Assembly (NCBI GenBank): GCA_015485355.1 | Contig: WFTQ01000107.1 | Coordinates: forward strand, 1-44,787 | DNA length: 44,787 nt | Direction of reading: 5' to 3' | DNA from: a bacterium | Lineage (GTDB): Bacteria; Calditrichota; Calditrichia; RBG-13-44-9; J042 | Shown: in pieces, positions 951 to 30,205 of the stretch | Position numbering within the stretch: the stretch's first letter is position 1 | Layout: each line of letters starts with the position of its first letter | Position numbers and translations under genes: made by a program | Notes under the pieces: generated by a model | What the model saw: the letters and a program-made list of their open reading frames with translations, nothing else | Told to the model about the DNA's origin: nothing | The model's database searches: none

Positions 951-3191
951 TCAATTTTTCTGACTCAAGATATCCTGCACTTTGTGCAATATGTCTTCGA
1001 TCTGAAAGGGTTTGCGCATAAACGCCGAGGCCCCCTTCTCCAGAATTTCTTCCAGATTTTCCCTTTGCGCATATCCACTGATAATCAAAACTTTCTGATC
1101 CGGCTTCACTTTTTTGATTTCCATGAATGCCGTGCGTCCGTCCATGACCGGCATGACCATATCCAGAATCACCAGATCGATTTCATTGGCATAGCGTTTA
1201 AAAATCTCCACCCCTTCTTTCCCATTGCCGGCGGTAAAAACCTCGTAACGTTTCATTTCCAGTACTTCTTTTAACATCGAGCGGATGTTATACTCATCGT
1301 CAACCACCAGAATTTTGGAAACTTGAGCGACCTTAGCTTCTTCCATAAAGGGAACCACTTCCTGCATGATCTTCTCTCCTTTCAAGGGAATGTAGACAAA
1401 GAACCGGGTGTATTCGCCAGGCAAACTTTTGACCCAGATTTCACCATCAAGATCGCGAACAATGTTATAGGCAATAAACAAACCTAATCCCATCAATTCG
1501 TTCTTGATTTTGGTTGAGAAAAACGGTTTAAAGATATGGGGTAAAAGGTTCGGATCGATGCCCATCCCGTTATCCTCAACCGTGACTTCTATATAATCGC
1601 CCTGTTTCAGGAAAATTTTATCCGAATTCAACAAGGTATCCCGAGGCAGAGAGATCATTCGGGTGGTGATTTTAATGCAACCCTTGTCGCGCAAGGCTTC
1701 TACACTGTTTTGAAGAAGGATTCGCAAGAGCTTTTTAATGCGCTCTTCGTATAACAGGGTGGTGGGCAAACCAGGTTCCAGGGAATATTGAATTTCCACA
1801 TGGGGGGGCAACTGCTTCCGGAACGCTTCGACCGTCGACTGGATCAGGGTGTTTAGATTGATTTCCCGCGGGGGTTCAATCTCCTGCAGCCCGTAATTCA
1901 AAAAACGCTGCAAAATCTTGGAAGTCTGGCTCAAGGCGTTTTCCACGGTCTGCACATTTTTTTGCAAGGGATGGTCGCTTGGCAGTTTCGATTTGATGAG
2001 GCTGACATTGGGGACAATGAGGGTGAGCATGGAGTTGATATGTTCGTAGATCGTTTCCGAAAACTGCGTAATTTCATTCAGCAATTCGTTGCGCTTTTCC
2101 AGCTGTTCCCGATAATACTGCTGCGTTGCGTCCACCGCCAAAATAACGATGAAGTCGACCTCTTCCTGCAACTGGGCCTTGGCCAGGTAAAATTCAACAA
2201 TCAGTTCATGGTTATCGGCCGCCACGACCGGACACTTGTAGAAATGAATGTCCCCATCCTTTAATTTGTTCATCAGGTTCTGGAAAGATTTTCGATGATC
2301 TTCCGGGATGATGGTGAGAAATTTTTCTCCGATAATCAGGTTTTCGTCCAGTCCCAATTTTTGCAGGGCTGCGTGATTGGTTTGCAGTACCACTCCCCGG
2401 GTGTCGGTGATAAAGAAAAGTAAGGGGCCTTTTTCCAGATATTCGGCGTAGTCGACTTCTTCCAGAATTTTCTTGTATTTCAGCTGTTTAAACAACTTGC
2501 GCTTAAAATGGGAAAAGTAGTGATGTTGAAACAAAATGAGCGAGATCATCCCCACAATCAGGTTCACAAAGGAAAGGTGTTGAAGCTGAAAGGTGTTCTC
2601 CTTGGCAAGCAACATACCAAAACCAAAATATTTGTCTTTTAAGCGGATGGGAAACAGGATGGCCATCTGGGAGCCCATTTTTGTTAAAAAGGCCGGGTCG
2701 ATTTGGAATTGTTGCAGGGAGTTTAGTAAGACGGCCATGTCGCGGTCGATGATCAGGCGGTTCATCCGCTGAAGATTTTCGGGCTTCAGCAACTGCCTGT
2801 ACAAGGCGGGTTTCTCGCTTGCCGGGTGTAGAATTTCGTATTCCTGTTCGTCTTCGCCGAAGCGGGTATACAAAAAGGCATGCTGATAAGGCACCTGGGT
2901 CTTTATAAAATCGAAGAGTTGTTGAATGGCTTCTTGGGCATTGCGGGTGCGCAGTATCCGGCGCTGAAAATCCACCAGACCGGAAAGCAAATTGACCTGA
3001 TCGAGGTAGTTCTGGAATTGATGATCCAGGGTCTCGAAAACGGTTTTGATGTATTGCTCCAGCTCGTGCAACTCTTCGGCCACGCTATGGAGCTCGGAAA
3101 AGACCTGGGCATGTTCTTCCATGGCCCGAATGGTTTTTAAAATATGATCAAAATAATCCAGAATATTTTTCTGCTTGGACATCCTAACCAT
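951..3191 (-). CDS. Soluble hybrid sensor histidine kinase (coiled coil-GAF-PAS-HK-REC)
   Basis: This 746-residue protein has no membrane segment, so it senses in the cytoplasm. Order: coiled coil (about 1-75), GAF (77-225), a heptad linker, PAS (250-360), dimerisation helices (about 368-435), HATPase_c (445-605) and a C-terminal receiver (625-745). The ATP-binding motifs look intact: N box N495, G1 DNGMGI (540-545) and G2 MGLGL. The receiver has its acidic pair D631/D632, phosphorylation site D677, S705 and K727. The H box is odd: it reads YEHINSMLT (382-390), with Glu where kinases of the HDFNNLLT type have the phosphorylated His and a His one place later. It starts 11 bases after an HDOD gene, which probably forms an operon with it. 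Confidence 0.88.
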   Translation of the reverse strand: MVRMSKQKNILDYFDHILKTIRAMEEHAQVFSELHSVAEELHELEQYIKTVFETLDHQFQNYLDQVNLLSGLVDFQRRILRTRNAQEAIQQLFDFIKTQVPYQHAFLYTRFGEDEQEYEILHPASEKPALYRQLLKPENLQRMNRLIIDRDMAVLLNSLQQFQIDPAFLTKMGSQMAILFPIRLKDKYFGFGMLLAKENTFQLQHLSFVNLIVGMISLILFQHHYFSHFKRKLFKQLKYKKILEEVDYAEYLEKGPLLFFITDTRGVVLQTNHAALQKLGLDENLIIGEKFLTIIPEDHRKSFQNLMNKLKDGDIHFYKCPVVAADNHELIVEFYLAKAQLQEEVDFIVILAVDATQQYYREQLEKRNELLNEITQFSETIYEHINSMLTLIVPNVSLIKSKLPSDHPLQKNVQTVENALSQTSKILQRFLNYGLQEIEPPREINLNTLIQSTVEAFRKQLPPHVEIQYSLEPGLPTTLLYEERIKKLLRILLQNSVEALRDKGCIKITTRMISLPRDTLLNSDKIFLKQGDYIEVTVEDNGMGIDPNLLPHIFKPFFSTKIKNELMGLGLFIAYNIVRDLDGEIWVKSLPGEYTRFFVYIPLKGEKIMQEVVPFMEEAKVAQVSKILVVDDEYNIRSMLKEVLEMKRYEVFTAGNGKEGVEIFKRYANEIDLVILDMVMPVMDGRTAFMEIKKVKPDQKVLIISGYAQRENLEEILEKGASAFMRKPFQIEDILHKVQDILSQKN

Positions 3192-3202: not shown

Positions 3203-4069
3203 CTACACGTGCAGTATATCGAAGTATACTTGATTTTCTTCGACGACCTCTTGAATGGAGGTGATCAATTCCTGAAACTCTTCCTGGCTGAAGCGGAAAT
3301 GACGGGTGAAGTTGGCATCGTATTGGAGGACGGCCTCCAGACCTTTCATGCCATCTTGCATATAGTGGGCCAGGATGTTACTCAGGTAAGCCACCCGAGT
3401 TGCAAGACTATACCTGGCCGACGGGGGAATCTGGGAGGGATCGTGGTGATGTATAACCATCTGAACCAGCTCTTCCGGCAGGTTCCAGTTTTCCAATAAT
3501 TTTCCACCCACCTGGCCGTGATGAAAGTTGAGGAATTTTTTCTCCACCACGTCCAAACGGAGCCCCTCCTGTTGACTCTTCTCAAGTAAAAAATCAAAAT
3601 CTTCATTCATCGCCCGGCTTTCTACCAGTTTGCCAATGTCGTGTAACAAACACCCCACATAAAACAACGATTGATTCTCCGGATCAAATTTTTTCCCCAA
3701 GCTTCTGCCGATGATACCCGACAAGAGCGCATGACGCCATACATACCGCAGATCGAACACCGGCGATTTGCGAAATCCCTTGTAAAAACTGTAAATGGCG
3801 ATGCTAATGGCGATGTCTCGTATCAGATTGAACCCCAGGATGACGATGGCCCGTTCGATGGAATAAATGGCCCGGGGATAATTAAAATAACTGGAATTGG
3901 CAATCCGCAGAATTTGAGAAGTGAGCACCTGGTCGGAATGGATGATACTTTTTAATTGGTTGACCGTCGTGTTGGGATCGGCGCAAAGTTGAATCACTTC
4001 GAACGCCACATGATTCCGTGTCGGGAGGCGTTCGATGCGGTTGACGATTTGATCGATTTGATAATTCAT
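3203..4069 (-). CDS. HDOD domain signalling protein (copy 1)
   Basis: A 288-residue protein formed almost entirely of an HDOD domain: helices with SDQVLTSQILRIANSSY, the ERAIVILGF segment, then an HD-like motif LLHDIGKL (H143, D144) and HHGQVGGKLLENWNLPEE. HDOD proteins are HD-superfamily relatives, mostly without shown enzyme activity, found in signalling and motility regulation. I start at ATG 4069 because AAGGAAGG lies just upstream and the start then matches its paralogue at 28040-28951. An in-frame ATG at 4144 adds 25 residues but has no ribosome-binding site. It precedes the hybrid kinase by 11 bases. The HDOD-then-GAF-kinase order recurs at 26593-28951. Confidence 0.88.
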   Translation of the reverse strand: MNYQIDQIVNRIERLPTRNHVAFEVIQLCADPNTTVNQLKSIIHSDQVLTSQILRIANSSYFNYPRAIYSIERAIVILGFNLIRDIAISIAIYSFYKGFRKSPVFDLRYVWRHALLSGIIGRSLGKKFDPENQSLFYVGCLLHDIGKLVESRAMNEDFDFLLEKSQQEGLRLDVVEKKFLNFHHGQVGGKLLENWNLPEELVQMVIHHHDPSQIPPSARYSLATRVAYLSNILAHYMQDGMKGLEAVLQYDANFTRHFRFSQEEFQELITSIQEVVEENQVYFDILHV

Positions 4070-4461
4070 GTACCTTCCTTGATCGAAACCAGGCCCCAGT
4101 GTGGTAATATCCTTATCGAAATGATTGGGCAAAACTTTAAACATTTTTGATTTTATTCAATAAAAATACTCGACTTAGATGCGAAAACCTTTCGGCTCCC
4201 CCAACCCACGGGGAATCGTTCCCGGCGGACGAAGACGCAATTCTCCCGGCTATGTCCTTCGCTTCTCGAACGCCATGGACCGGTTATGTTTTCCCTTTTT
4301 GCAGAGAACCCAGCTCTATTCCGCCCGGTGTAAGAGGCTTGTCCCGGCCCCGAGAGGTCCGCGTCTGAAAGCCCGTGGTGCCATTGGATATCCCGCAAAC
4401 CATCGATGTCTGTTCGGTTCCCCAAGAGAGCCCGGAGGCGGTGAAAAGGCCCGATTGATGG
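4070..4461. other. Non-coding spacer, GC-rich with AT-rich promoter-like edge
   Basis: About 390 bases between the NtrC-type regulator and the HDOD gene, both on minus. Open frames exist on both strands, but none has a recognisable protein pattern, sensible start or ribosome-binding site. The bulk (4190-4450) is GC-rich with repeated CCCGG/CCGGG words. The side nearest the HDOD gene (4138-4175) is AT-rich and is where a promoter for the HDOD-kinase unit would be expected, though I see no clean -35/-10 pair. Confidence 0.5.
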
Positions 4462-5832
4462 TCACAGATTGTATTTCTTCACTTTATTCCGAAGCGTGCG
4501 CGGGGTGAATCCCAGTTTTCTGGCCGCCTGGGTTTTGTTTCCGTTGGATTCCACCAACGCCTGCCGGATAATTTCCCGTTCAAAAGCCTCCAACTTCTCC
4601 TTGTAGCTCATATGCTTTTGTTCCTGCAACAGAGTCTGAAAAGGTGCCTGTTTCTGCGAGGTCATCTTTAAATAGGCGGGCAGATCTTCGGGCTGGATGA
4701 ATTCTTCTTCCGTCATGACCACAGCACTTTCGATGGCATTCTCCAGTTCGCGCACATTCCCCGGCCAGTCGTGATTCATTAAAATCATGCGGGCTTCCTG
4801 AGTAATTCCCTTCACATGGCGATTGTTTTTTGCGGCATACTTCTGGATGAAATAATCGGTTAAGGGGCCGATGTCTTCCCGGCGTTCCCGCAGCGGCGGA
4901 ACGAATATGGAAATGACGTTCAGACGGTAATACAAGTCTTCCCGAAATTGCCCTGCGGCCATGATGTGCTCCAGATCGGCGTTGGTGGCGGCAATCAAGC
5001 GAACGTTGACCTGAATATTTTCCATTCCCCCCACGCGGGTAAACCGCCTTTCCTGCAAAACACGCAATAATTTTGCCTGAAGTGATACCGGTATTTCGCT
5101 GATTTCGTCCAAAAAGAGGGTCCCGTGATTGGCCAGCTCGAACTTCCCCTTCTTTAATTTGTAAGCGCCCGTAAAGGCGCCTTTTTCGTGGCCGAAAAGT
5201 TCGCTCTCCAGCAAGGTCTCGGGAATAGAGGCGCAATTGATTTCCACCAATGGACCGTTCTTGCGGTGGCTTTGATAGTGAATGGCCCGGGCAATGAGCT
5301 CCTTACCCGTACCGCTTTCGCCGCGCAGGAGGATGGTGGCATCAGAATTGGCCACCTTGACGATTTTCTTGAAAACCTCCTGCATCTTCCCGCTAACCCC
5401 GATGATATTCTCGAAGCGGTAGGTTTCCAGGATTTTGGACTTCAGATTAATGTTTTCGATGATCAATTTCTGTTCCTGAATGGCCCGGCGGATGATGATG
5501 AGCAATTCGTCCAGATTAATCGGCTTGGTCAAATAATCGTAGATGCCCAGCTTCATGGCATGGACGGCATTCTTTACCGTGCCGAATGCGGTGAGCATAA
5601 TGATGCGAATCTCGGGCTGTTCTTCCAGAAATTGGCGGGACAATTCCATACCGTCCTTATCGGGCAGCAAATAATCCAGCAGCACCACGTTAAAGTGGTT
5701 GTTGCGGAACTGGGTAAACGCTTCCCGGGCGTTGCGCGCTTTGACGACTTCAAAATTTTCGTCTTCTAAAATCTCGGCTAATCCATTGAGCGTGTTAATA
5801 TCGTCTTCAACGATAAGAATCTTGTCCTTCAT
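4462..5832 (-). CDS. NtrC-family sigma-54-dependent response regulator
   Basis: A 456-residue bacterial enhancer-binding protein with all three standard parts. The receiver (1-120) has phosphorylation site D53, T81 and K103. The AAA+ domain (about 142-375) has Walker A GESGTGKE (171-178), the sigma-54 contact loop GAFTGA (218-223), Walker B GTLFLDE (237-243) and the arginine-rich REDLYYR (297-303). A Fis-type helix-turn-helix ends it (432-453, NKTQAARKLGFTPRTLRNK). It should activate sigma-54 promoters after phosphorylation. I start at ATG 5832, preceded by AGGG; a longer frame runs into the upstream kinase gene. It begins 25 bases after that kinase (5858-7678), its likely cognate partner. 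Its target genes are not shown by the sequence. Confidence 0.95.
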   Translation of the reverse strand: MKDKILIVEDDINTLNGLAEILEDENFEVVKARNAREAFTQFRNNHFNVVLLDYLLPDKDGMELSRQFLEEQPEIRIIMLTAFGTVKNAVHAMKLGIYDYLTKPINLDELLIIIRRAIQEQKLIIENINLKSKILETYRFENIIGVSGKMQEVFKKIVKVANSDATILLRGESGTGKELIARAIHYQSHRKNGPLVEINCASIPETLLESELFGHEKGAFTGAYKLKKGKFELANHGTLFLDEISEIPVSLQAKLLRVLQERRFTRVGGMENIQVNVRLIAATNADLEHIMAAGQFREDLYYRLNVISIFVPPLRERREDIGPLTDYFIQKYAAKNNRHVKGITQEARMILMNHDWPGNVRELENAIESAVVMTEEEFIQPEDLPAYLKMTSQKQAPFQTLLQEQKHMSYKEKLEAFEREIIRQALVESNGNKTQAARKLGFTPRTLRNKVKKYNL

Positions 5833-5857: not shown

Positions 5858-7678
5858 TTATTGGCCACTATCGATCGGCAATTCAATAAATACCTTGGTG
5901 CCTTTATTCGGCCAGCTGTTAATATAAATAAATCCCTGATGGCCTTCAACGATTTGTTTGGCGATTGCCAGCCCCAGACCCGTACCCGTTTTTTTGGTGG
6001 TGTAGTAAAATTCAAACACTTCGTTGATGATTTCGGGGGAAATGCCGCGTCCGTTGTCTTGAAAGACAATGCGCACATACCGCTGGGATTGATCGGAAGA
6101 TTTGTCCCGCTGCACCACTTCGGTGCGCACGGTGAGTTCCCCACCATGAGGCATAGCTTCCAGCGCATTGATCACGATGTTGTGAAAGACCTGTTTCAGC
6201 TGGTTGTGGTCGAACATGCCGGTGATTTCGTTGTTGGCATAACGGCGATGGATTTTTATGCATTCGGTGTTGGCCCGGGCCTCCTGAAGAAGGAGAACCT
6301 CTTCCAGCACCCGATGGATGTCGGTGCGAATCAGGTTCAATTCCGGTGGACGGGCGATGACCAAAAAATTGGTCACCAGATCGTTGATCCGCGAGATTTC
6401 GGAGGAGAGCACGTGGAGATATTTGATTTTACGATCGGGCGGAACATCGCTCCGATTGATCAGTTTTTTTAAAATCTGCATGTTGATATTCATGGAGTTC
6501 AGGGGGTTGCGAATTTCGTGGCTAACCAGAGAGGCGAAACGGCTCAGGGCGGCCAGGCGTTCCATGCGCTGTAGCTCTTTCTGGTTTTGTTGCAGCGAAC
6601 GGGCCATGGAGTTAAACTCCTGGGCCAGCTCCGCCAGCTCGTCCTGCCGCTGCAGGCGAATCCGATGGTTCAGGTTCCCACTGGCATACTCCCGAACCCC
6701 CCGAACCAACTCCACCAGTGGAGAGGTGAGCCGCTGTACCGCCAGGTAGGCGAGCACCATGGCGATTAACGTGGTCAGCACCACAAAAAAGATGACCCGC
6801 TTCTGCATCTGAAAGGCCAGGGTAAAAGCTTCCTGCTGCGATTGCTGTATCACAATGCCCCAGCCCAGCTTAGGAATGGGAACATATGCGGCGATCATGG
6901 TTTCCCCGTCCATTGTGTAACGGGTAATCCCTTCCAACCCCTGACGCAATTGTTCAAAAAAAGCAAAACCGGAATAATCCTCCTTTTCTAAAACTTTTTC
7001 TTTTTCCTTATGGGCAATCACTATCCCGCTATTGCTCAGTAAAAAGGCGTTTCCCGTTTTTCCGATGGTGATGTTGTCTACCAGATCCCAAATGTTTTTC
7101 AAATCGATTTCGGCCGCCAGTACGCCTAAGGTTTGATCGAAGCGTACCAGGGGTTCAGCAATCAACAGCACGGGGAAGCGGGAGGGAGTAAAATACACTT
7201 CGGACAGAAATTCCTTGCCCTGCATGGCGGTACGGAAGAATGCTTCCCGACTAAAATCCATTTGTTCCTCCCCGAAACTGGTGGTCACCTGGACGATGCC
7301 CCGGTTGTCGACGATAAAAATTTTGTGGAAAATGGAGTTTTCTTCTTTGATCCGATTGATCAGGCGACTCTGGGAGAATTTCTCCATTTCCAGAATGTCC
7401 CGGGTGTAAGCAATCGTGTTGAGGATGGTGAGGGGACTCTGGATGAAGAGGAAGATTTCGTTGCTGGCACGACGGGCGGTTTCCAAATTCCGCTGGTAGA
7501 TATAGGTCTGCACCGTGCTTTGGGTCAGGGTGATTAAAAAGATGCTGACCACCACGATGGGCAATACCCCTAATCCCACATAGGAAAAGATGAGACGACG
7601 GGAAATTTTACCGCTCAGGAAGCGCCGGAAGGCTCGTTTCAACAAACGCCAGCGGGTTTTAAAATGTCGCCTTTTCAA
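5858..7678 (-). CDS. Membrane sensor histidine kinase (dCache-HAMP-HisKA-HATPase)
   Basis: A 606-residue inner-membrane kinase. A basic N-terminus leads into membrane segment 1 (about 30-52). A periplasmic dCache-type sensor (about 55-285) follows, with PVLLIAEPLV, TIGKTGNAFLL and the PKLGWGIVIQQ end typical of dCache_1. Then come membrane segment 2 (about 295-315), HAMP (315-367), HisKA with VSHEIRNPLNS (phosphorylated H387), and HATPase_c with N504 in HNIVINALEAM, DNGRGIS (541-547) and GTGLGLAIA. All catalytic motifs look intact. It sits between an orphan solute-binding protein gene (25 bases upstream) and the NtrC-type regulator (25 bases downstream), a three-gene sensing operon. The dCache fold usually binds small ligands such as amino acids; the ligand here is unknown. 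Confidence 0.93.
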   Translation of the reverse strand: MKRRHFKTRWRLLKRAFRRFLSGKISRRLIFSYVGLGVLPIVVVSIFLITLTQSTVQTYIYQRNLETARRASNEIFLFIQSPLTILNTIAYTRDILEMEKFSQSRLINRIKEENSIFHKIFIVDNRGIVQVTTSFGEEQMDFSREAFFRTAMQGKEFLSEVYFTPSRFPVLLIAEPLVRFDQTLGVLAAEIDLKNIWDLVDNITIGKTGNAFLLSNSGIVIAHKEKEKVLEKEDYSGFAFFEQLRQGLEGITRYTMDGETMIAAYVPIPKLGWGIVIQQSQQEAFTLAFQMQKRVIFFVVLTTLIAMVLAYLAVQRLTSPLVELVRGVREYASGNLNHRIRLQRQDELAELAQEFNSMARSLQQNQKELQRMERLAALSRFASLVSHEIRNPLNSMNINMQILKKLINRSDVPPDRKIKYLHVLSSEISRINDLVTNFLVIARPPELNLIRTDIHRVLEEVLLLQEARANTECIKIHRRYANNEITGMFDHNQLKQVFHNIVINALEAMPHGGELTVRTEVVQRDKSSDQSQRYVRIVFQDNGRGISPEIINEVFEFYYTTKKTGTGLGLAIAKQIVEGHQGFIYINSWPNKGTKVFIELPIDSGQ

Positions 7679-7703: not shown

Positions 7704-9350
7704 TTAAAATGCATATTTTTGGAGTTCCTTGGGCACAAACCAGTTGGAAATCGGATTCAATCGGTAGTAGTAAGTGTATTCATCCCGAAACACGGACCGG
7801 ACGTTGTGGAAGCGGCTGCTTACGGCAACAATGATTTTACGGTTGAAAAAGAGAAAAATGGCCGGCAAATCACGGCGCACGTACAACTGAAACCGTTTAA
7901 GCAGTTCTTTGCGGATTTTTTCGTCCCGGTAGGAGACGTTAAAGATGCGATCGATGTGCCGGTTTCGATAATTGGGGTTTTTGAATTCGCCCCGCAGAAT
8001 GTTAAAATAAAAATATTCTACGGCCTCGAAGGGATGTTCCGGATCGTAGATGTATTTTCCGATCAGACATTCATAATCGCCCTTTTGTATGGCCAGAGCT
8101 TTTTGGCTGCGATCCAGGGGCACGGGTTGGACGTTGATGTTCAAATCACCCAGAAAAACCTTAATGCTGCGAACGATGTTTTCTTCCAGAATCGACTTTC
8201 GGGTGAAAAACAGTTTAAAAGAGAGGGGCTCGCCGTTTTTTTCCAGTATCCCGGTGCTGCGATTCAGGATCCAGCCGTTCCGCTTCAGCAACCGCATGGC
8301 CTGGGTGGGATTGTACTCGTCCTGAAAGGCGCCTCCGGCAAAGTGGGGGCTGTTTTCATCGAATAAAGTCAGGGCTATGTTGCCGTTTTTCTCCAGAATG
8401 CGCCGGGTAATTTGTTTCCGGTTGATACCCATCAAAATGGCCCGGCGTACCTCGGGTTCGGTGAAAGGGAATTTGTGTAAATTGAATAACAAGTAGTAGA
8501 GTTTCTTCTCCGGCCGCGGAACGGAGAAGACGATGATTTTTCGGCCCATCAGCTGGTTGATGCGTTGGGCCGTTGAAACCTCGGGCAATTCGGCAAAGTC
8601 GATCTCTCCGTTTACCAGGGCATCCACCATCTGCTGCTCATCGTCGAAAAATTTAATCTGGATGCGATCTAAAAACGGCCGCCCGGAATAGTAGTGGGGA
8701 TGATAGCGGAGATAAATCGCCTTGGCGGAACGGAATTGATAGGCGAATGGTCCCAGGCCCATGGGACGTTTTTCGTCGAAGATGGCCAGCCCCTTTTCCA
8801 GACCATCACCATAATAACGCTGAGAAATGATGGGCACGTCATTCAGTTTGCGATTGAAATCCGCGTCGGGCACATAAAGTTCGAAGACGATTTCCAGGTC
8901 GCCCACGGTACGCACACTTTTAATATTCTGAAAGTTTATACGACGATTCAAGATGTGCCCACCAAATTTTTTGAGAAATTCGAAGGTGAATTTGACATCG
9001 GTGTTGCGAACGTCGGTACCGTCGTGGAAGATGATATTGCGTTTGAGCACCATCCGCCACACTTTGTTGGCCTTGGGTCCCGAGGTAAAGACGAATCGAT
9101 CGACTAAGGTAGGGGGGGCCACCATTTTATCGGGACGCTGGATCAAACCGCCCCCAAAAAGCAGGCCGATGACATCCCGCTGCTCAGGGGAATCGATCTC
9201 AAAGGGATTCAGTCCCATAGCCGGATCGCCCAGCATCCCGATGATCAATTGATCGCCATAGGCTTCCGTGATTTCGAAAGACAACTGGGCCGGCAAGGAA
9301 CCCCACGCCAGGAGCAGTATGCCTACCAGTACAGGTACAAATTTTTTCAA
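7704..9350 (-). CDS. Extracellular solute-binding protein family 5 (oligopeptide/nickel type), orphan
   Basis: A 548-residue exported protein. It has a signal peptide (1-21, ending SLPAQ) and no lipobox cysteine, so a soluble periplasmic form is expected. Family-5 features run through it: NPFEIDSPEQRDVIGLLFGG, MVLKRNIIFHDGTDV (the family's W/F-H-D-G-T element), MGLGPFAYQFRSA and EVRRAILMGINRKQI. Length matches DppA/OppA proteins. The start is TTG (9350): AAAGGGAG lies 9-10 bases upstream and the signal peptide begins cleanly there. No permease or ATPase gene is nearby. It heads an operon with a dCache kinase and an NtrC-type regulator, so it may serve as a ligand-presenting co-sensor, which is inference. 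Confidence 0.9.
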   Translation of the reverse strand: MKKFVPVLVGILLLAWGSLPAQLSFEITEAYGDQLIIGMLGDPAMGLNPFEIDSPEQRDVIGLLFGGGLIQRPDKMVAPPTLVDRFVFTSGPKANKVWRMVLKRNIIFHDGTDVRNTDVKFTFEFLKKFGGHILNRRINFQNIKSVRTVGDLEIVFELYVPDADFNRKLNDVPIISQRYYGDGLEKGLAIFDEKRPMGLGPFAYQFRSAKAIYLRYHPHYYSGRPFLDRIQIKFFDDEQQMVDALVNGEIDFAELPEVSTAQRINQLMGRKIIVFSVPRPEKKLYYLLFNLHKFPFTEPEVRRAILMGINRKQITRRILEKNGNIALTLFDENSPHFAGGAFQDEYNPTQAMRLLKRNGWILNRSTGILEKNGEPLSFKLFFTRKSILEENIVRSIKVFLGDLNINVQPVPLDRSQKALAIQKGDYECLIGKYIYDPEHPFEAVEYFYFNILRGEFKNPNYRNRHIDRIFNVSYRDEKIRKELLKRFQLYVRRDLPAIFLFFNRKIIVAVSSRFHNVRSVFRDEYTYYYRLNPISNWFVPKELQKYAF

Positions 9351-21410: not shown

Positions 21411-22826
21411 TTAATAAGACGAATACGCTTCGGATTCGATCAGGTTGCCCACCACGTGAAAACGACGACGTCTTAATTTGCGTTTGATATCCAGACTCTT
21501 TTTTTCGATCTGAATAGTCACCTTTTCATAAATATCTCCGGTAACAATCACCTCGGCCCTCTTAATGGTTTCCAGCGCCTGTTCCAGCTGAGCCTTCTCG
21601 TTTTCCATCTTCCGAATTCGTTCGGGGATCAGATCATTCTGACGTTGTAAAAACTGCAAATGCTTTTCTTCCTGTTCATTCAAGTCACCATCGATCTGAC
21701 GCAATACCAGATCATAAATTTCCTGTTTGAGTTCGATAACGCGATCGTAATAGGCGTCAATTTCTTCCTGTACTTTCGATAATTTCCGGCGTAGCAAGTC
21801 ATCCTGCCCCACCACCAGGTAGGTTTGTACCCCTTCGGGACTCCCAACCACATCCACCCGTATCCGATACAATGCTTCGCTTCGTCCGGAAATGATCCGG
21901 CCTCGGGGACTTAGAATCCTGTCTCCGACGGTGGTGTTGCATCCGATTAATTCATATTCAAAATACAAATTGCCGCCGGCCTGAAGGTTTTGGTAGCGGG
22001 CGAACGCCAGATAGATGTTTCGGTCGGCCATCACCAATCCCTTGCCATGACCGATAAAACCTTTATGAATGATCACATCCCGATGACCATGAATGCGCGC
22101 ATCTTCCACCACCCCATAGACTTCCACATCTTCGCCGGCTTCAATCCGGGTATTGGCCTTTACATCTCCCAGCACGATGACGCTTCCTTTTTCCTTAATA
22201 TTGCCCACACCAGGGTCCACCCGCTCCAGTACACGTACCGGTTTGATCCAGACACGGTTGGGTTCTTCAAAGAAGGCCAGACCGTCCGTTAAGGCCGTAA
22301 ATACATGGGGCTTTTCCGGATGCGGTGCCACACCCTCGCCGGGTTCGACCCGAATTTGAGGAACCGGTTTCACCGGGATCGGTTCCCCCAACACCGTACG
22401 CCCCTCCCGCGACGGTTTTCCGGGAATCCAGCGTACCAACGGCGTACCTTTCCGGACCAGGTTGGGATGCCGAAAAGCATGAAAACGAATATCCAGCTGT
22501 TCGGTAAACGCGATGGGTTTGCGAGGATTAAAATCGATCAATTTCTGGATTTGCGAGGCCCTACCGGGCTCGGGCGGCTGTCCCCTGGCGATCAGGAGGC
22601 GACGATCCGGTTTTTTCTCCAGCAGCAACTTTTTGATGTTCTCTTTATCCAGCCCGAACCGTACCCCCGCCTGTTGCAGTTTCTGTTTTAACAGAGACGC
22701 CAGCTGGGGAGTGGGTATGGAAAAGTTGGTGATGGCGGCGTAAACCGCCATGTGATCCCGGGAAATTTCCAGGCGTACCCACTCGTTGGTATTGGATAAT
22801 GAGGTGGGGGATGATTTAAGATTCAT
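21411..22826 (-). CDS. FapA (DUF342) family protein
   Basis: A 471-residue protein of the FapA/DUF342 family. The N-terminal region (35-105) is followed by the core (about 120-360) with GTPLVRWIPGKPSREGRTVLG, ALTDGLAFFEE and a right-handed beta-helix-like series (GSVIVLGDVKANTRIEAGED, VEVYGVVEDARIHGHRDVII, GNLYFEYELIGCNTTVGDRI). A coiled coil (about 355-430) and a second strand repeat (VTGDIYEKVTIQI) close it. DUF342 proteins have been linked with flagellar assembly and polar localisation in some species. It is the last gene of the flagellar cluster; its start overlaps the upstream kinase gene by 11 bases. Confidence 0.85.
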   Translation of the reverse strand: MNLKSSPTSLSNTNEWVRLEISRDHMAVYAAITNFSIPTPQLASLLKQKLQQAGVRFGLDKENIKKLLLEKKPDRRLLIARGQPPEPGRASQIQKLIDFNPRKPIAFTEQLDIRFHAFRHPNLVRKGTPLVRWIPGKPSREGRTVLGEPIPVKPVPQIRVEPGEGVAPHPEKPHVFTALTDGLAFFEEPNRVWIKPVRVLERVDPGVGNIKEKGSVIVLGDVKANTRIEAGEDVEVYGVVEDARIHGHRDVIIHKGFIGHGKGLVMADRNIYLAFARYQNLQAGGNLYFEYELIGCNTTVGDRILSPRGRIISGRSEALYRIRVDVVGSPEGVQTYLVVGQDDLLRRKLSKVQEEIDAYYDRVIELKQEIYDLVLRQIDGDLNEQEEKHLQFLQRQNDLIPERIRKMENEKAQLEQALETIKRAEVIVTGDIYEKVTIQIEKKSLDIKRKLRRRRFHVVGNLIESEAYSSY

Positions 22827-24009
22827 GATGCACCGCTCGATCCTTATTCCGAACCCGTTTAAACTTCGGGATTTTCAGGATAAAACAGTTCCCATCCTGG
22901 AATTCAGGATCCAGCCGAATGTCTCCCCCATGGGCATTTAAGGCCAATTTACAAAAAATCAGCCCCAACCCCCGGGCCGGTTTAAAACCGGCCTTCTTCA
23001 ATTCCGTCTGACCAAACTTCTGAAACACCTTTTCCCGAAACTGCGACGGGATCGCATTCCCATCGTGACACACCCGCATTTCCAAAAATCCATCAGGAGC
23101 TTTCCCCGTGGTCACCAAAATCGTCATGTACTCCGGGGTATTCTGAAAGACAAAATTGAACAGGTTGTCCAGGATACGTTCAAACACATCCTTGTCCACA
23201 TATGCCGGCGGCAACCCGGAAGCCAATTTCAACTGAACCGTTTTGTTTTCGTGCTCGGGTATATCCTGAAAATATTCCACCGTGTTTTTGATCAGGGGAG
23301 TAATATCCACAGGAACGGGTTCCAATTCCATGGTATGTTGTTCCAAACGACTGATATCCAGAAGATTCAACACCATTCGGAGCAAACTCCGGCTGCTGCG
23401 CTCGATGCGCTTGGTGTATTTTTCATCCGGTTCGGTTCCCCCTGTATGCTTTTGCATGTGCATCATCTGCAGATTCCCCTGAATGACAAAGAGGGGATTC
23501 TTCATGTCGTGCACAATCAAATTGGTCAATTCTTTTTTCAGCAAATCTTCCCTTTCCAGGATTTGTTTCTGCTTTTCCAGTTCTTTGTTGCGCCGGATCA
23601 GTTCATCATAATACAATTTCAAGCGCAACAGGGATTTAACCCGCGCCAACAATTCCACGCTATCGAAAGGTTTGGAAATGAAATCGTCGGCTCCGGCTTC
23701 CAGGGCCCGTATCTTGTCTTTCAACTCTTTCAGCGCGGTAATCATCACGATAGGAATGTAAAAGGTCCGGCGGTTTTTTTTCAACCGCTCACAAACCTGA
23801 AAACCATCCAGCCGGGGTAACATAATGTCCAATAAAATAATATCCGGCGGGTCGCGCTCCACCTTCTCGATGGCCTGAATCCCATCCATGGCGGTCACCA
23901 CTTCGTAGCCCGCCGGCTTCAGAAAATACACCAACAGGTCGATACTTTCCTGACTGTCTTCAACAATCAGTACCTTTAATTTCCTGTCCGTGGCAAAAAT
24001 ATCGTGCAT
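22816..24009 (-). CDS. Response regulator-histidine kinase (REC-HisKA-HATPase) with degraded ATP site
   Basis: A 397-residue soluble protein with reversed hybrid order: receiver first (11-125; phosphorylation site D61, T91, K113), a coiled linker, HisKA with LIVHDMKNPLF (H167), then an HATPase domain. The N box keeps its Asn (LDNLFNFVFQ) and GLGL of the G2 box is kept, but the G1 box reads HDGNAIP instead of DNGxGIP: the adenine-binding Asp is His and a Gly is Ala. ATP binding may be impaired. Its ATG directly follows the stop of the FliK-like gene (TAGATG) and it overlaps fapA, so it belongs to the flagellar operon. A scaffold or phosphorelay receiver role is inferred. Confidence 0.88.
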   Translation of the reverse strand: MHDIFATDRKLKVLIVEDSQESIDLLVYFLKPAGYEVVTAMDGIQAIEKVERDPPDIILLDIMLPRLDGFQVCERLKKNRRTFYIPIVMITALKELKDKIRALEAGADDFISKPFDSVELLARVKSLLRLKLYYDELIRRNKELEKQKQILEREDLLKKELTNLIVHDMKNPLFVIQGNLQMMHMQKHTGGTEPDEKYTKRIERSSRSLLRMVLNLLDISRLEQHTMELEPVPVDITPLIKNTVEYFQDIPEHENKTVQLKLASGLPPAYVDKDVFERILDNLFNFVFQNTPEYMTILVTTGKAPDGFLEMRVCHDGNAIPSQFREKVFQKFGQTELKKAGFKPARGLGLIFCKLALNAHGGDIRLDPEFQDGNCFILKIPKFKRVRNKDRAVHHES

Positions 24010-25152
24010 CTAAGCAACCTTATCCACCGTTGAAACGGAGTAGTTTAACAGTTGCCGCAATCCCTGGCCCATTCGAATTCCTGTAATGTGTGATAAGTTA
24101 ACTCTCTGGAAGCCAATTCGCATTAGTTTTTCTTTTAAATTTATCTTGTGAGAATCGACCTCCCGACCGAATACTTGATGACCATTGTAAAATACCAGGC
24201 TTATTTCGGTCCCCTTGAGTTCTCCGCGCACCTGAATCTCTTGCCACACCGGATGGTCGACCTCGAAATAAAACCGTATCCCGGACGATCCGGCGGTGTT
24301 CGATTGCTTTAGAAAAAGGAATCCGGATTCTTGGTTCACTTCCACCGGGAACATGGCCCAGCGTCCGGTGCGATAACGCACAATTTGTTCTTCCACAAAC
24401 CGCATACCGTCCTGATAGAAAGAGGACGTCCGGCAGCGTTCCCTTCCCGAACAATGAATTCGAAAATGCCGCCAGACAGCGCTGTGTAAAAATCGATCGA
24501 AAAGCGAGCCCTTCTGCAGGGGTTGTAATCCTTCCCATAACGATTCGAAGAGAGAAGAGGCCGGCTCCTCGCTCGCTTCGGCATCCGACGGTTGCCGGGA
24601 GGCCCTCGCATCGGCATCTTTAAGCCCCCAATACCACTTCAACAAAAAGAACGGTTCGGTTACCGCCAGATGCGAGAAAACACTGGACTGCACAAAATAC
24701 GGCAACAGGAACACCTCTGCAGAAATTTTCGGGTGACGATCCCACCGATGGTATAAGGATTTTAATTGTTTCACGTACTCCCGGCGCACCACGACACCCA
24801 GCTGGAAGGACAATCGAAGAAAATCCAGCGAAAAAGCATCCGTAGGAAAGCCGAATTTGCGGGCCAGTTGTTTCATCTGGGAACCGGTTTGCAAATGCTG
24901 CAGGGTGGAAATGAGTTTCAAATGAATACGAGGACTCCCTTCTTTGAATTCCAGCACCAGCAACTGTCCATCCGATAATTCCAGGCGGCTGTTCACCTCC
25001 GTGAGCTGCCCCCCGATCCTGACCAGATAACGAAACGGTCCCTTCCGTTGGAGCACACGTCCCACCAGAACATCGCCTTTTCTTAAGGGAAATTGTTCGA
25101 GACTGACCCGAGTGGGTTGGTTTGTGATTTCCGCAGGACCCATTGATTTCAC
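24010..25152 (-). CDS. FliK-like hook-length control protein (putative)
   Basis: A 380-residue soluble protein. The N-terminal part (20-80: LRKGDVLVGRVLQRKGPFRY, LVRIGGQLTEV, LVLEFKEG) resembles the beta domain at the front of many FliK-like proteins. The C-terminal third (about 265-370: FPVEVNQESGFLFLKQS, ISLVFYNGHQVFGREVDSHK, INLKEKLMRIGFQRVNLSHI) matches the Flg_hook pattern, a strand set and amphipathic helices ending L..LG. FliK measures the hook and switches export specificity with FlhB. No other fliK is visible. The GTG start overlaps the upstream stop by four bases (GTGA); ATG 25143 is an alternative. Assignment rests on pattern and context. Confidence 0.55.
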   Translation of the reverse strand: MKSMGPAEITNQPTRVSLEQFPLRKGDVLVGRVLQRKGPFRYLVRIGGQLTEVNSRLELSDGQLLVLEFKEGSPRIHLKLISTLQHLQTGSQMKQLARKFGFPTDAFSLDFLRLSFQLGVVVRREYVKQLKSLYHRWDRHPKISAEVFLLPYFVQSSVFSHLAVTEPFFLLKWYWGLKDADARASRQPSDAEASEEPASSLFESLWEGLQPLQKGSLFDRFLHSAVWRHFRIHCSGRERCRTSSFYQDGMRFVEEQIVRYRTGRWAMFPVEVNQESGFLFLKQSNTAGSSGIRFYFEVDHPVWQEIQVRGELKGTEISLVFYNGHQVFGREVDSHKINLKEKLMRIGFQRVNLSHITGIRMGQGLRQLLNYSVSTVDKVA

Positions 25153-26618
25153 GTCCGTTTAGCTGCAAACTCCAGAAACATCTCCACTTCGTGTTGTCCC
25201 AACTGCAGTTCCCGGGCAATTTCTGGAATGCTGTAATTCCGGGCCAATAAATCCAGGATGTTCTGTTTATAATCTCGACTGCGTTGCATCATATGATGAT
25301 GGGCGCTGAGGTTGAGAGCCAATTCGATTTCTCCCACTCCCAGATTCAATTCCCGGGCCAATTGCTTTTGCCGTTCCAGGTGCGGGGCCTCCTCTTCCCG
25401 GGCCGCTTCATCCGGTAAGGACGGTTTCCGGAAAGAGGGCGTTGCTTCCGGAAAGGTGGAAGCCCCCGGCATCCTTTCCGGGATGTCTTCCCCCCCTTCG
25501 GGAGGCGCCGGGCTTCGTTGCATTCGACTCACCATTTGCAAAATCTGTTCCTTGCGTTCCTGAACATTCACCGCCGCAGGATTTCTGTTCCGTTGGTGTT
25601 GCTGCCGGGCAAGGGAGGCTTTCAGGAAAAGCTTCTCTCGCTGGCGTCGCAACCACTGCAGCACGGCAAGGGAAAAACCCAAAAGTCCAAACACGGAGCC
25701 AATAAGGATGAAGACCAGCAACTTCCGCCGGTAATCTTTTCCGGGCGGATCCATAGCGCCGGCCTTAACCACACCGGCGGAATCGGTCGCCATCACCGCC
25801 GTCTGCCTTTGTGGGTCCCGGCTCCCATCCACCAGCTTGATGCGCATGGGAGACTCGTTTTTCACTTTCTTGCGGGAAGTATCGCTTTCTTCCCGGCGGG
25901 CTTTTATTTCCTCATACTTTTTCTCGTACGACCTGGCCAATTGAATCCGGCCCGATTCCCGGTACAGACGCGCCATATAATAATAAATCCGGGTGGAATC
26001 GCAGCCTTTACGGAGGGCATGGTTGAAATTGATTTCCGCCAGCCGATATTGTTTCCATGCCAGTCGAATCTGGCCGGCCTTGTAATAGGCATGGGCATGA
26101 CTTCGGTTCCGAAAGACCACCCGACGGTAATACTGCAAGGCGGTTTTCAAATCGCCTTTGCGCTGAAAATAGACTCCCCGCCAGTACAGGTTGTTCAGCG
26201 GATCCCGATATTGCTGATCGTCGATGTCCAGGCGGATTCGGCGGTCCTCTTCCTGTATTTTAAAATCCAGTTTATCCAGCAAGTCAACAATCATCAGGCC
26301 GTGAGCCTCGTCTATGGGGATATAACGAATCCCCATAACACCGGAAGTCTTTGGTGGTGCCACTGTTTGTCCGGCGGTCATAGCGGCAAAGGAAAGGGAG
26401 GTTCCCTCCCGAAGTGATAATTTTAGAATGACCTTATTGGCCGGAGAGAAATTCAGTAATTTCACCTGAACCGGTTGGTCGAATTGCACTTCCAGGCGGG
26501 TGAAGGCGGGTAATTGATCAAAACGCAGCTGCATGGCACCCACCCCTTGCAGCCCCAGAAACAGCCCGACCAGCAGTAACCGTGGTATCTTGTCAGGCCA
26601 TCGATGCAAGCGCTCCAT
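25149..26618 (-). CDS. TPR membrane protein with DUF6115-like C-terminus, flagellar cluster
   Basis: A 489-residue protein. It has a signal peptide or anchor (1-28), a beta-rich exported region (30-135), TPR-like helices (about 143-232, WRGVYFQRKGDLKTALQYYR), a membrane segment (about 300-321), then a long charged region. A C-terminal helix-turn-helix-like motif follows (455-480, NYSIPEIARELQLGQHEVEM). The last motif resembles DUF6115, found in flagellar operon proteins such as the SwrB region of Bacillus. The topology puts the TPR outside and the HTH-like tail in the cytoplasm. I start at ATG 26618, because GGGAG lies 5 bases upstream; this overlaps the kinase gene by 26 bases. No precise function is known. 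Confidence 0.72.
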   Translation of the reverse strand: MERLHRWPDKIPRLLLVGLFLGLQGVGAMQLRFDQLPAFTRLEVQFDQPVQVKLLNFSPANKVILKLSLREGTSLSFAAMTAGQTVAPPKTSGVMGIRYIPIDEAHGLMIVDLLDKLDFKIQEEDRRIRLDIDDQQYRDPLNNLYWRGVYFQRKGDLKTALQYYRRVVFRNRSHAHAYYKAGQIRLAWKQYRLAEINFNHALRKGCDSTRIYYYMARLYRESGRIQLARSYEKKYEEIKARREESDTSRKKVKNESPMRIKLVDGSRDPQRQTAVMATDSAGVVKAGAMDPPGKDYRRKLLVFILIGSVFGLLGFSLAVLQWLRRQREKLFLKASLARQQHQRNRNPAAVNVQERKEQILQMVSRMQRSPAPPEGGEDIPERMPGASTFPEATPSFRKPSLPDEAAREEEAPHLERQKQLARELNLGVGEIELALNLSAHHHMMQRSRDYKQNILDLLARNYSIPEIARELQLGQHEVEMFLEFAAKRT

Positions 26619-28014
26619 CGTCTCTCCCAGACTGAAATTGAACATTCTTTTTTATTCGAATCATTACGGTGTTTCCCGCATCGGGCAAAGACTGAATATC
26701 CACCTCCCCGCCAATATCCCGGATCATTTGCACACTTACCATCAAGCTTAAGTTGTGCTGGGTACCACTGGTAACACTGAAAGGCACCAGCGCATTGGCG
26801 ACATCATTGGCATCCAGCGGGTCACCCGTGTCGTGGATCCGAATCTCGATAAAATCGTCCGCCGCCATCCGGGTTTGGATGGTAAGTTTTCCGCCCCGGC
26901 TGAGTTGCTTCTTGGCCGTTAAAAAGAAATTCAACAAAATCTGCTGCAAATAGATGGCATTGGCCGTGATCACCGGTAACTTTTCCGCCAGTTTTAACTC
27001 GATTTCGATGCCCCGTTTTTCAATCTGCCCTCGAACCAGCTTAAGGGTATTGACAATCAGGGGATTGATTTCCACCAAATCGGAGGCCTGTTGTTTGTTC
27101 TCCCTGGCCAGCATCAAGAGTCCGCGAACGATCGTGGCTATGCGTAACGCCTGCATTTCCACTATCTTCAGGGTATCCTGACTGTGATTGCCCATCATCG
27201 CCACCTGAATCTTCCCCAAGATGATTTGCAGGGGATTGTTGATTTCGTGGGCAATGCCACCGGCCAGTTCTCCCACCGTGGCCAGTTTAACCGCCTGCAT
27301 CAATTGGGCCTGAGATTGCTTCAATTCTGTATGGGCCCTCTCCAAGTCCTTGAATAAACGCGTATACTGAATGGCAATGGCGGTTTGCATCCCCAAAAGA
27401 TTGATCAGTTCCAGATCCCTTAACGAAAACTGACTCTGCTCCTTCCGGGTGAACAAGAGCAACATCCCTATGTGATTATCGTTGATCACCAGGGGAGTAA
27501 TGACCAGGTTTCCTTCTTTCAGGGATAGGGCTTTATGAATGATGAATTCGTGCAACGGCACCACGATCGATTGTTGATGTTCCCACATCCATTCCAGAAT
27601 CCCCTCTTCCAACATGGCCTCGGAGAGTTTTAAAAAATCGTCTCGATGCTCCGGCAAAACCACAATCCAGCGATCCCCTTCTTTGAGGACCACATTGCCC
27701 GCTTCGTAACGGATGATACGGGTGCACAATTTAAGTAAGGAAGCAACGATTTTATCGTATTCCAGATGTCGAGTTATAATTTCGGATGCCTTTTGAATGG
27801 TCAGAAACTCGTCCAGGGAGTATGATAAATCCCCATGAAGTTTCTTATGATAATCCAGTTCCTGCTTAAGGGCGTGGATATCCTCTTTCAACCGGTTAAC
27901 CAGCGAGATGTAATTCTCCACAATGGCATCGATCTCTCCGCTGGTAAAGGCCTTGTCCTTAAGATCATGGACCAAAATATCCACATCCTGGTGGTTTCGG
28001 AAATGGGAAAACAT
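26593..28014 (-). CDS. Soluble GAF histidine kinase of the flagellar cluster, degraded ATP lid
   Basis: A 473-residue cytoplasmic kinase-like protein: coiled coil (30-65), GAF (75-215), HisKA with GGIAHEINNPL (H256), then HATPase_c. The H box is perfect. The ATP-binding half is worn: N362 is kept in LLNFFLTAKKQL, but G1 reads DTGDPLD (395-401; second Gly lost) and the G2 GTGLGLS box is replaced by THNLSL-type residues (SGTQHNLSL). It may be phosphorylated by a partner rather than by itself. It follows the HDOD gene by 25 bases, copying the order at 951-4069. FlrB/FlgS-type kinases act in flagellar hierarchies; no matching regulator lies nearby. Confidence 0.88.
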   Translation of the reverse strand: MFSHFRNHQDVDILVHDLKDKAFTSGEIDAIVENYISLVNRLKEDIHALKQELDYHKKLHGDLSYSLDEFLTIQKASEIITRHLEYDKIVASLLKLCTRIIRYEAGNVVLKEGDRWIVVLPEHRDDFLKLSEAMLEEGILEWMWEHQQSIVVPLHEFIIHKALSLKEGNLVITPLVINDNHIGMLLLFTRKEQSQFSLRDLELINLLGMQTAIAIQYTRLFKDLERAHTELKQSQAQLMQAVKLATVGELAGGIAHEINNPLQIILGKIQVAMMGNHSQDTLKIVEMQALRIATIVRGLLMLARENKQQASDLVEINPLIVNTLKLVRGQIEKRGIEIELKLAEKLPVITANAIYLQQILLNFFLTAKKQLSRGGKLTIQTRMAADDFIEIRIHDTGDPLDANDVANALVPFSVTSGTQHNLSLMVSVQMIRDIGGEVDIQSLPDAGNTVMIRIKKNVQFQSGRDDGALASMA

Positions 28015-28039
28015 CCTTATTCTCCTTCCTGGTTAAGGG

Positions 28040-28951
28040 TCAGGTGACGGGGGACTCTTCCTTCACCTTGCGGTTTAACAAGGTGGCCAGAAAATCGTCG
28101 ACTTTTTCATTTTCCCGGCGAAACGCTTCTTGATAGAATTCCAGTGGTTGAGGTTGTCGGAAAAGCCCCTTTAAACGTTTCTCAATATCGATTTCCTGAA
28201 ATTCCGGCAGCTGATTTAATCCACCACCCTCGTCGATGGAGTGACTGATCAAATCAGCCAGATGAATAGCCCAGACAAACTCGCGATATTTCAGGGTTTC
28301 CGGCGGTTGATGATGAAAGCGAATGGCCTGAACCAGTTTTTCGGGCAAATTCCAGCCCTCCGCCAACCAGCCGCCCACTTCGGCATGGGAAAATCCCAGA
28401 ACAGAGTACTCCGCCTGCAGAAAAGGCACCTGCTTTTCCCGGGCGTAGTGCAACACTTTGTCGAACAGATTCGGAAAATATTGCACCAGAACCAGGTACC
28501 CGATATCGTGAAGCAATCCCCCCACAAACACTTCTCCCGCCACCGAATAGCGCACCATCCGCGATAACATGCGGGAGCCCATGGCCACCACCACGGCATG
28601 GCGCCAGAATTTTTCCAGATTGATATCCACTTTCACATTGCGATTAAATTGATCGATAACGGATATGCTCAGCACCAGGTCGCGCAAAGCGTTAAACCCC
28701 AGCACGACGATGGCCAGATTCAAGGTGGATATGCGACGAGGGAAACCGTAAAAGGCGGAGTTGGCCAGTTTCAAAATGCGCGCCGTCAATACCTGGTCGG
28801 CGGCAATCACTTCCCCCAGCCGCGAGGCCGACGTCCGAGGATTCTCCACCAGCTCCAGAACGCGGGTGGCAATCTGAGGCAGGGTGGTTAATCGGGAAAT
28901 CGATTGAACACGATTACGAATATCTATCAGCGACACATCTCTCTGTTTCAT
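28040..28951 (-). CDS. HDOD domain signalling protein (copy 2)
   Basis: A 303-residue paralogue of the HDOD protein at 3203-4069, with shared blocks DQVLTARILKLANSAFYGFP, LNLAIVVLGFNALRDLVLSI and LLHDIGYL (H148, D149), then SHAEVGGWLAEGWNLPEK. The remaining HD-type histidines (RFHHQPPE) are kept. AAAGGGATC before the ATG serves as ribosome-binding site. It lies between a small flagellar-cluster gene and a GAF kinase, so it is probably co-expressed with the flagellar operon. HDOD proteins often act as binding modules downstream of second messengers or kinases; its partner is likely the next-encoded kinase (inference). Confidence 0.9.
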   Translation of the reverse strand: MKQRDVSLIDIRNRVQSISRLTTLPQIATRVLELVENPRTSASRLGEVIAADQVLTARILKLANSAFYGFPRRISTLNLAIVVLGFNALRDLVLSISVIDQFNRNVKVDINLEKFWRHAVVVAMGSRMLSRMVRYSVAGEVFVGGLLHDIGYLVLVQYFPNLFDKVLHYAREKQVPFLQAEYSVLGFSHAEVGGWLAEGWNLPEKLVQAIRFHHQPPETLKYREFVWAIHLADLISHSIDEGGGLNQLPEFQEIDIEKRLKGLFRQPQPLEFYQEAFRRENEKVDDFLATLLNRKVKEESPVT

Positions 28952-28962
28952 TCCAGATCCCT

Positions 28963-29292
28963 TTAAATTTTTACATCCAGATGTTTGACATGGCCCTGTT
29001 CATCTTTCTCGATAATCGACCGGCTTTCGGTGGTATTTTCCCCGGTCTTTCGTCGATCCTTCGCTTTTTGGCCTGACCGCCGGCCCTTTTCCTGATCCCC
29101 ACTCTTTTCTTTCAACCTCGCCTTTTCCGAACCCTCGGCCCTGACGGGCTTGCTCTGCAAACCTTCCAAATACTGCCGAATGGAGTTTTCCAGTACCTGC
29201 TGGTGGATCTCCGGCAATTTGCGCTGGGTGAGGTATTGCTTATCCCCGGACAATACGCCGGCCTGCAGATACTGTATTTTGATCGGGACCAT
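28963..29292 (-). CDS. Small charged flagellar-cluster protein
   Basis: A 109-residue protein with an ordered start (PIKIQYLQAGVLSGDKQYL, then PEIHQQVLENSIRQYLE) and a highly charged Lys/Arg/Glu tail (50-109) ending HVKHLDVKI. The N-terminal P-I-x-x-x-x-L-Q pattern resembles short proteins found in flagellar operons of other phyla, which are unassigned. The ATG follows GGGGG by 7 bases. Between fliA and the HDOD gene and co-directional with both, it could be an export chaperone or regulator, but the sequence does not tell. Confidence 0.65.
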   Translation of the reverse strand: MVPIKIQYLQAGVLSGDKQYLTQRKLPEIHQQVLENSIRQYLEGLQSKPVRAEGSEKARLKEKSGDQEKGRRSGQKAKDRRKTGENTTESRSIIEKDEQGHVKHLDVKI

Positions 29293-29449: not shown

Positions 29450-30205
29450 TTAAACACTTAATTCTTTTTTCAGCATGCGCTTCAATGTTTTGATCGTCTC
29501 GGAATGAATCTGAGAGATTCGACTTTCAGAAACGTTTAAAATTTTACCGATTTCCTTAAACGTCAAGCGCTCGTAATAATACAGGGTCAGCGCCAACCGC
29601 GCTTTCTCGGGCAACCGCTTAATCAATCGAGCCAATACTTCTTTCATTTCCCGGGACTCCAGATCTTCCAGCGGATTTCCGGTGGAACTATCCTCTACGG
29701 AATCGTAGAGATTGTGATCGTCGAAGTTGGGATTGGGCTTGTCCAACGAAACCATGTTTGTACGGTTCAATTCCGACTGCCACTGATGGTATTCTTCCTC
29801 GCTGATTCCTAAATGATAGGCCACCTGCTGATCGGAGACTTCCCCCCGTTGGACCTGCTCCAGCTCTTCAACCACCTTCTTGATTTTATTCGATTTCGAA
29901 CGCAGGGAACGCGGGATCCAGTCCTGTTTGCGCAACTCATCGATGATCGCCCCCTTTATGCGCGGGATGGCGTAGGTCTCGAACTTGATCCCGAAATAGG
30001 GATTGTAACGATCCAGCGCCTCGCTTAAACCGATAACCCCTATGTGGACCAGATCCTCCCGATCCACATTGGAGGGAATCGATTTAAACAACTTGTTCAC
30101 CACATAATGCACCAAACCCAGATATTTTACCATCAACTGATTTCGCAGCTCTGGGGATTTCTGTTGATGGTAGGCCTGCCACAACGAATCCACTTTTGCT
30201 TTCAT
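29450..30205 (-). CDS. fliA: Flagellar sigma factor sigma-28 (FliA/WhiG family)
   Basis: A 251-residue RNA polymerase sigma factor of the FliA group. Region 2 is seen in NQLMVKYLGLVHYVVNKL, DLVHIGVIGLSEALDRY and GIKFETYAIPRIKGAIIDEL, then DWIPRSLR, region 3 (YHLGISEEEYHQW), and region 4 with ALTLYYYERLTFKEIGKILN and VSESRISQIHSETIKTL. It recognises TAAA-N15-GCCGATAA-type promoters of late flagellar genes. AAAGGAAG precedes the ATG. It lies after flhG and one small membrane protein gene, as in Gram-positive-like fla/che operons. A sigma-28-like site occurs before flbD-motA in this window. Its anti-sigma factor FlgM is not seen here. Confidence 0.95.
   Translation of the reverse strand: MKAKVDSLWQAYHQQKSPELRNQLMVKYLGLVHYVVNKLFKSIPSNVDREDLVHIGVIGLSEALDRYNPYFGIKFETYAIPRIKGAIIDELRKQDWIPRSLRSKSNKIKKVVEELEQVQRGEVSDQQVAYHLGISEEEYHQWQSELNRTNMVSLDKPNPNFDDHNLYDSVEDSSTGNPLEDLESREMKEVLARLIKRLPEKARLALTLYYYERLTFKEIGKILNVSESRISQIHSETIKTLKRMLKKELSV

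Follow-up and report, generated by a model that had tools for sequence, protein, structure and literature searches.

In Rhodobacter sphaeroides, the catalytic half and the phospho-acceptor/phosphatase half of a kinase reside on separate proteins, CheA3 and CheA4, and the HE/DxxN/T motif (below, HE/DxxN) is used for phosphatase-capable split kinases (PMC3591291). DivL of Caulobacter keeps the histidine-kinase fold for regulation without catalysis (PMC12189002). For Leptospira, the accessible part of the description of the LvrA-LvrB-LvrC system (PMC13269768) presents LvrB as an active kinase with the order REC-DHp-CA (DHp, dimerisation and histidine phosphotransfer; CA, catalytic and ATP-binding) and LvrC as a REC-Bergerat anti-sigma protein without a DHp; that part gives no sigma partner for LvrC and reports no HDOD protein. 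The HDOD proteins SadB, GsmR and Cj0248 regulate non-enzymatically, often acting on flagella, according to the accessible parts of two reports (PMC6543031, PMC11004494), the first of which treats the mechanistic role of HDOD as not established. Here, we describe two gene pairs in a 44,787-nucleotide stretch of DNA from a member of the Calditrichota (the window; contig WFTQ01000107.1, assembly GCA_015485355.1), each made up of an HDOD gene followed by a gene for half a histidine kinase. The pairs, HDOD1-HK1 and HDOD2-HK2, have lost opposite parts of the kinase, and HDOD2-HK2 seems to feed a further input into a transcription switch, and does not look like a copied motility module.

Half-kinases encoded behind the HDOD genes

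All four genes lie on the minus strand, and the order of HDOD then kinase, with gaps of 11 bases (open reading frames 4144-951) and 25 bases (28951-26593), is as the original prediction gave it. HDOD1 (3203..4144) probably starts at an internal ATG at 4069, and HDOD2 (28040..28951) is a stand-alone HDOD protein of 303 amino acids with PDB relatives 3hc1 and 3m1t; both pass the curated cut-off of the HDOD family (PF08668, 22.9 bits) over the whole domain, with E 1e-54 and 185 bits for HDOD1 and E 3e-66 and 223 bits for HDOD2. HK2 (26593..28014) comprises a coiled coil, GAF, DHp and a degenerate CA domain (Pfam GAF, HisKA and HATPase). HK1 (951..3191) has the order coiled coil-(GAF)-PAS-DHp-CA-REC, in which the DHp lacks the phospho-acceptor histidine and the CA is intact. 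Pfam matches in HK1 bear out the PAS and REC domains expected of one copy, along with HATPase. The prediction of two GAF kinases stands for HK2; the window copy of HK1 has no significant GAF match, and weak ones were found in 6/10 orthologues. The third protein of interest, RECHK (22816..24009, minus strand), is the REC protein expected three genes after HK2, has the order REC-DHp-degenerate CA (Pfam REC-HisKA-HATPase) and occurs phylum-wide in Calditrichota.

Sequences of HK2 (n = 11), RECHK (n = 23) and HK1 (n = 10) were aligned with 21 ordinary kinases, in which the histidine, the N-box asparagine and the G2 glycines are present in 21/21 and the G1 aspartate in 20/21. HK2 retains the phospho-acceptor histidine in 11/11, whereas the G1, F and G2 boxes of its ATP site are broken: the second G1 glycine and the first two G2 glycines are lost in 11/11 and the N-box asparagine in 9/11. 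Its H-box, HEINNPLQ, does not vary among the 10 full-length orthologues, a contrast with the drifting ATP site that suggests that the histidine is in use. RECHK has the histidine in 23/23 within an invariant HD(M/I)KNP of its HisKA domain and retains the REC aspartate, with the N-box asparagine replaced by F or Y in 23/23 and the second G1 glycine lost. The HE/DxxN motif is present in both, as HExxN in HK2. HK1 shows the reverse: the phospho-acceptor position holds E, N, G, K, A or S in 10/10, and the ATP site is intact, with the N and G1 boxes preserved in 10/10. The alignment of HK1 was anchored by the FNNLLT motif beside the missing histidine; a shifted acceptor in the window copy (YEHIN) was considered and rejected, as this stretch reads YEQIN in the sister genome and contains no histidine in the remaining ones. 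Neither HK1 nor HK2 carries the full motif set of a functional histidine kinase (histidine; N, G1 and G2 boxes).

The predicted structures had mean pLDDT (predicted local distance difference test) values of 72.6 and 73.3, adequate for folds only, and no active-site conclusion rests on models alone. The AlphaFold2 (AF2) model of HK2 has a predicted GHKL fold with a short or truncated ATP lid, and LvrB, DivL and ordinary kinases are among its neighbours in the PDB.

The sigma-RECHK core

RECHK is present in 30 of the 40 genomes of the class. On every Calditrichota contig with more than 1 kb of sequence upstream of it (24/24), a sigma-28-family gene precedes it on the same strand, adjoining it in 17 (22-369 bases) and separated from it by HK2, with or without HDOD2, in 7. 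HDOD2-HK2 was therefore inserted, in one order only, into a sigma-RECHK locus that is older. Stages of increasing length are found: sigma-RECHK alone in Calditrichales and G004, sigma-HK2short-RECHK in G006 (L184), sigma-HK2-RECHK in G007, sigma-HDOD2-HK2-RECHK in G005 and G009, and the same with two further genes, on the flagellar operon, in the G000-G003 group. The cultured species Caldithrix abyssi also appears to have the core, without HDOD2-HK2, as G017, which we take to be this species, has sigma-RECHK at 1.35 Mb; another gene of sigma-28 type (28%) lies at 1.78 Mb. A Planctomycetota-labelled contig (L203) with a cut RECHK at its end and no sigma gene was judged chimeric, because the RECHK frame opens only within the REC domain, where it borders on unrelated sequence.

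Linkage and phylogeny of the two pairs

Neighbourhoods were read in 16 genomes of the same order of Calditrichota. HDOD1 directly precedes HK1 in 13 of the 14 genomes with HK1, at gaps of -34 to 75 bases, the exception being G010, which has no HDOD1. The pair usually follows genes for an SBP_bac_5 protein, a dCache histidine kinase and an NtrC regulator, an order kept across families. Eleven genomes have HK2, and HDOD2 precedes it in 9/11, counting one in which the pair is divided across contig ends (G014); G007 has HK2 without HDOD2, and G006 a short HK2 with neither GAF nor HDOD2. The pairing is more than chance, since different genera and families share the gene order, and the conserved linkage that the original prediction set as a test is confirmed for both pairs. 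In the window's own genome, three of the four complete HDOD genes precede a GAF gene, although GAF_2 has only 24 matches genome-wide. The third such pair (contig C4, L007:9067-10512) couples HDOD to a 176-residue GAF-only protein, sits between CheR/REC genes and flgF-flgG-flgA-flgH-flgI-flgJ, and is kept in G001 and G013.

A tree of 59 HDODs resolves two old and distinct groups of orthologues, one clade for HDOD1 (100/98, 13 orthologues) and another for HDOD2 (100/97, 9 genomes). Forcing the two together cost 1.96 log units, with a p-value in the approximately unbiased test (p-AU) of 0.313, which neither supports nor excludes that they share an origin. The two are 34-35% identical, and the long identical blocks originally described, which are typical HDOD motif blocks, were overstated. 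HK1 and HK2 are about 22% identical over their common part, and their GAF regions gave no mutual BLAST match. When 51 DHp-CA regions were placed in a tree, HK2 grouped with RECHK (96/88), and a single HK1-HK2 clade was rejected at a p-AU of 0.031, a marginal value from a tree with long branches. Duplication of a whole module was therefore rejected for the kinases and is undecided for the HDODs.

Other HDOD arrangements were seen outside the two modules. Contig C4 (L007) has another HDOD gene ahead of CheR (12762-13640), tandem HDOD-HDOD gene pairs occur on L249 and L250 (G012 and G014), and L008:3435-5000 encodes a degenerate HDOD part with a GGDEF-like C-terminus, as judged by eye from the GGDEF motif visible in the translation.

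Genomic context in the window and relation to flagella

The sigma gene upstream of HDOD2 (29450..30205, minus strand; Pfam sigma70 r2/r3/r4) encodes a FliA-like member of the sigma-28 family and is the orthologue of the phylum-wide non-flagellar sigma. A different sigma-28 paralogue is also present in G006, where the flagellar operon has another sigma (33% identical to that of the window) and sigma-HK2short-RECHK lies elsewhere, and probably in C. abyssi, whose genome as published includes a cluster of flagellar genes (PMC5317091). Between the sigma gene and HDOD2, a small charged protein with no Pfam match (28963..29292, minus strand) is shared with G001, G002, G003 and G013, a flagellated subset. 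Downstream, an AMIN-like/TPR protein (25149..26645, minus strand; AMIN-like part judged by eye) overlaps the 3' end of HK2, and its gene is missing from the locus in flagellum-less relatives. It is followed by a poorly conserved protein of 380 amino acids (24010..25152, minus strand) with no Pfam match, which is confined to loci of flagellated members and absent at the G005, G009 and G007 loci; its position makes a FliK-like identity possible.

FlhA (PF00771) and rod/hook proteins (PF00460) had no match in G005 (one contig, 4.1 Mb) or G009, and both genomes retain sigma-HDOD2-HK2-RECHK. Conversely, G006 and G010 have flagella and no HDOD2. A motility-only role of HDOD2-HK2 is ruled out by G005 and G009; the tie to motility claimed in the original prediction holds locally, in the flagellar operon of the window, and fails as a general rule, the constant partners of the pair being the sigma-28-family gene and RECHK. 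In G005 (L076, C1:958000-964200), an FlhG-like gene is retained beside sigma and HDOD2-HK2-RECHK.

The operon of HDOD1-HK1, also on the minus strand, is headed by an SBP_bac_5 solute-binding protein (7704..9350; Pfam E 3e-51), followed by an NtrY-like dCache-HAMP histidine kinase (5858..7678) with complete motifs, which served as motif control, and an NtrC-type response regulator (4462..5832) that matches its counterpart in G001 at 92% over 456 amino acids. These assignments are from Pfam, and the order is the same in relatives. In G010 (L245:3708-7088), NtrY and NtrC form a single frame of 1126 amino acids, a fusion or a sequencing error.

Proposed mechanism and alternatives

Our best explanation, to which we give a probability of about 0.5 on sequence grounds, is that the two operon tails, each an HDOD with a half-kinase, evolved independently, and that HK2, steered by HDOD2, acts on RECHK and RECHK on the sigma factor as its controller, with HK1 modulating NtrY-NtrC. 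HK2, predicted from its broken ATP site to be unable to autophosphorylate, would serve as a phosphatase (given its HExxN motif) or a phosphotransfer protein for the REC domain of RECHK, and its GAF domain and HDOD2 would provide allosteric input. RECHK may in turn bind or release the adjacent sigma through its REC and former ATPase (GHKL) domains, by analogy with what is proposed for the REC-Bergerat protein LvrC. Since the sigma gene lies inside the flagellar operon in flagellated members, motility genes would come under the switch there as well. HK1 would influence its NtrY-NtrC neighbours as a scaffold or phosphate sink, with no self-phosphorylation.

Several points weigh against this explanation. 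Nucleotide binding is known to survive in some proteins whose HATPase boxes have degenerated. RECHK, unlike a minimal anti-sigma, retains a DHp and most of its G2 box. HDOD2 is absent from G007 and G006 and so is not essential to the circuit, and a search for a sigma regulon with the FliA consensus TAAA-N14-16-CCGATAA gave counts near those of the reversed-pattern control.

HK2 and HK1 could instead be scaffolds alone, positioning HDOD and other kinases by dimerisation with no passing of phosphate, as for DivL, which is catalytically inactive, controls CckA (PMC12189002) and is among the structural neighbours of the HK2 model. The complete lack of the histidine in HK1 fits this idea, but the invariant H-box of HK2 beside a drifting ATP site does not, and we consider it unlikely.

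A split kinase, in which the ATP half of HK1 acts in trans to phosphorylate HK2 (or RECHK) on its histidine, the phosphate passes to the REC of HK1 or RECHK and the two HDODs join the halves, appears more doubtful still. The motif losses of HK1 and HK2 are exactly complementary, the two halves of a kinase being found in HK2/RECHK on the one side and HK1 on the other, HK2 has HExxN, the motif given for bifunctional kinases of the split kind (PMC3591291), and every genome with HK2 also carries HK1. However, HK1 occurs in 14 of the 16 genomes of the order, so the co-occurrence is not significant (Fisher test by hand, p about 0.08); HK1 is found without HK2 in G004, G010 and probably G011, and the genes lie in different operons. 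An obligate HK1-HK2 pair is thus unsupported by the genome distribution. The RECHK of Calditrichales, which lie outside the genomes searched for HK1, would need a donor as well. A phylum-specific sigma switch made up entirely of half-kinases, in which HK1 phosphorylates HK2 in trans, HK2 sets the phosphorylation of RECHK, RECHK sequesters or frees the sigma-28-family factor and the HDODs couple the halves, strikes us as quite improbable.

The original prediction, that one HDOD-kinase module was duplicated and a copy recruited to motility, has little left in its favour beyond a shared domain order and the HDOD p-AU of 0.313, and is very improbable given kinases that do not group, opposite motif losses, unmatched GAF parts and, for HDOD2-HK2, an older sigma-RECHK context without HDOD.

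Comparison with known systems

The literature searched, which lacks most subscription papers, describes neither an HDOD-pseudokinase pair nor the sigma-RECHK locus; this is not proof of novelty. The conserved neighbour of HDOD2, with its histidine kept and its ATP site broken, is a concrete, testable partner with a defined output in a sigma factor and a receiver protein, and the sigma-RECHK regulatory locus extends through an entire phylum, very few members of which have been cultured. Few split or pseudo-kinases are known, and the half-kinases would contribute examples of the HisKA type.

HK1 and HK2 resemble CheA3 and CheA4 in how the halves are divided, and differ in being HisKA-type proteins rather than chemotaxis CheA, in keeping remnants of the other half, in being encoded in separate operons with HK1 also found alone, and in that trans-phosphorylation here is only putative. 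They are like DivL in keeping the fold, although HK2 has its histidine and lost the ATP site, and HK1 lost the histidine. Measured against the accessible account of the Lvr system, RECHK has the domain order of LvrB, an active kinase, but has lost N-box and G1 residues; like LvrC it joins REC to a Bergerat (GHKL) fold, yet the DHp between them means that it is not a member of the LvrC-like REC-Bergerat class, and the linkage of its gene to a sigma factor is not in the definition of LvrC given there. SadB, GsmR and Cj0248 are not described as kinase-paired in what could be consulted of their reports, and HDOD2 is also found in genomes without detected flagella. By analogy, split kinases, DivL-like pseudokinases and LvrB/LvrC are the nearest known kinds, of which the HDOD-half-kinase loci would be a variant.

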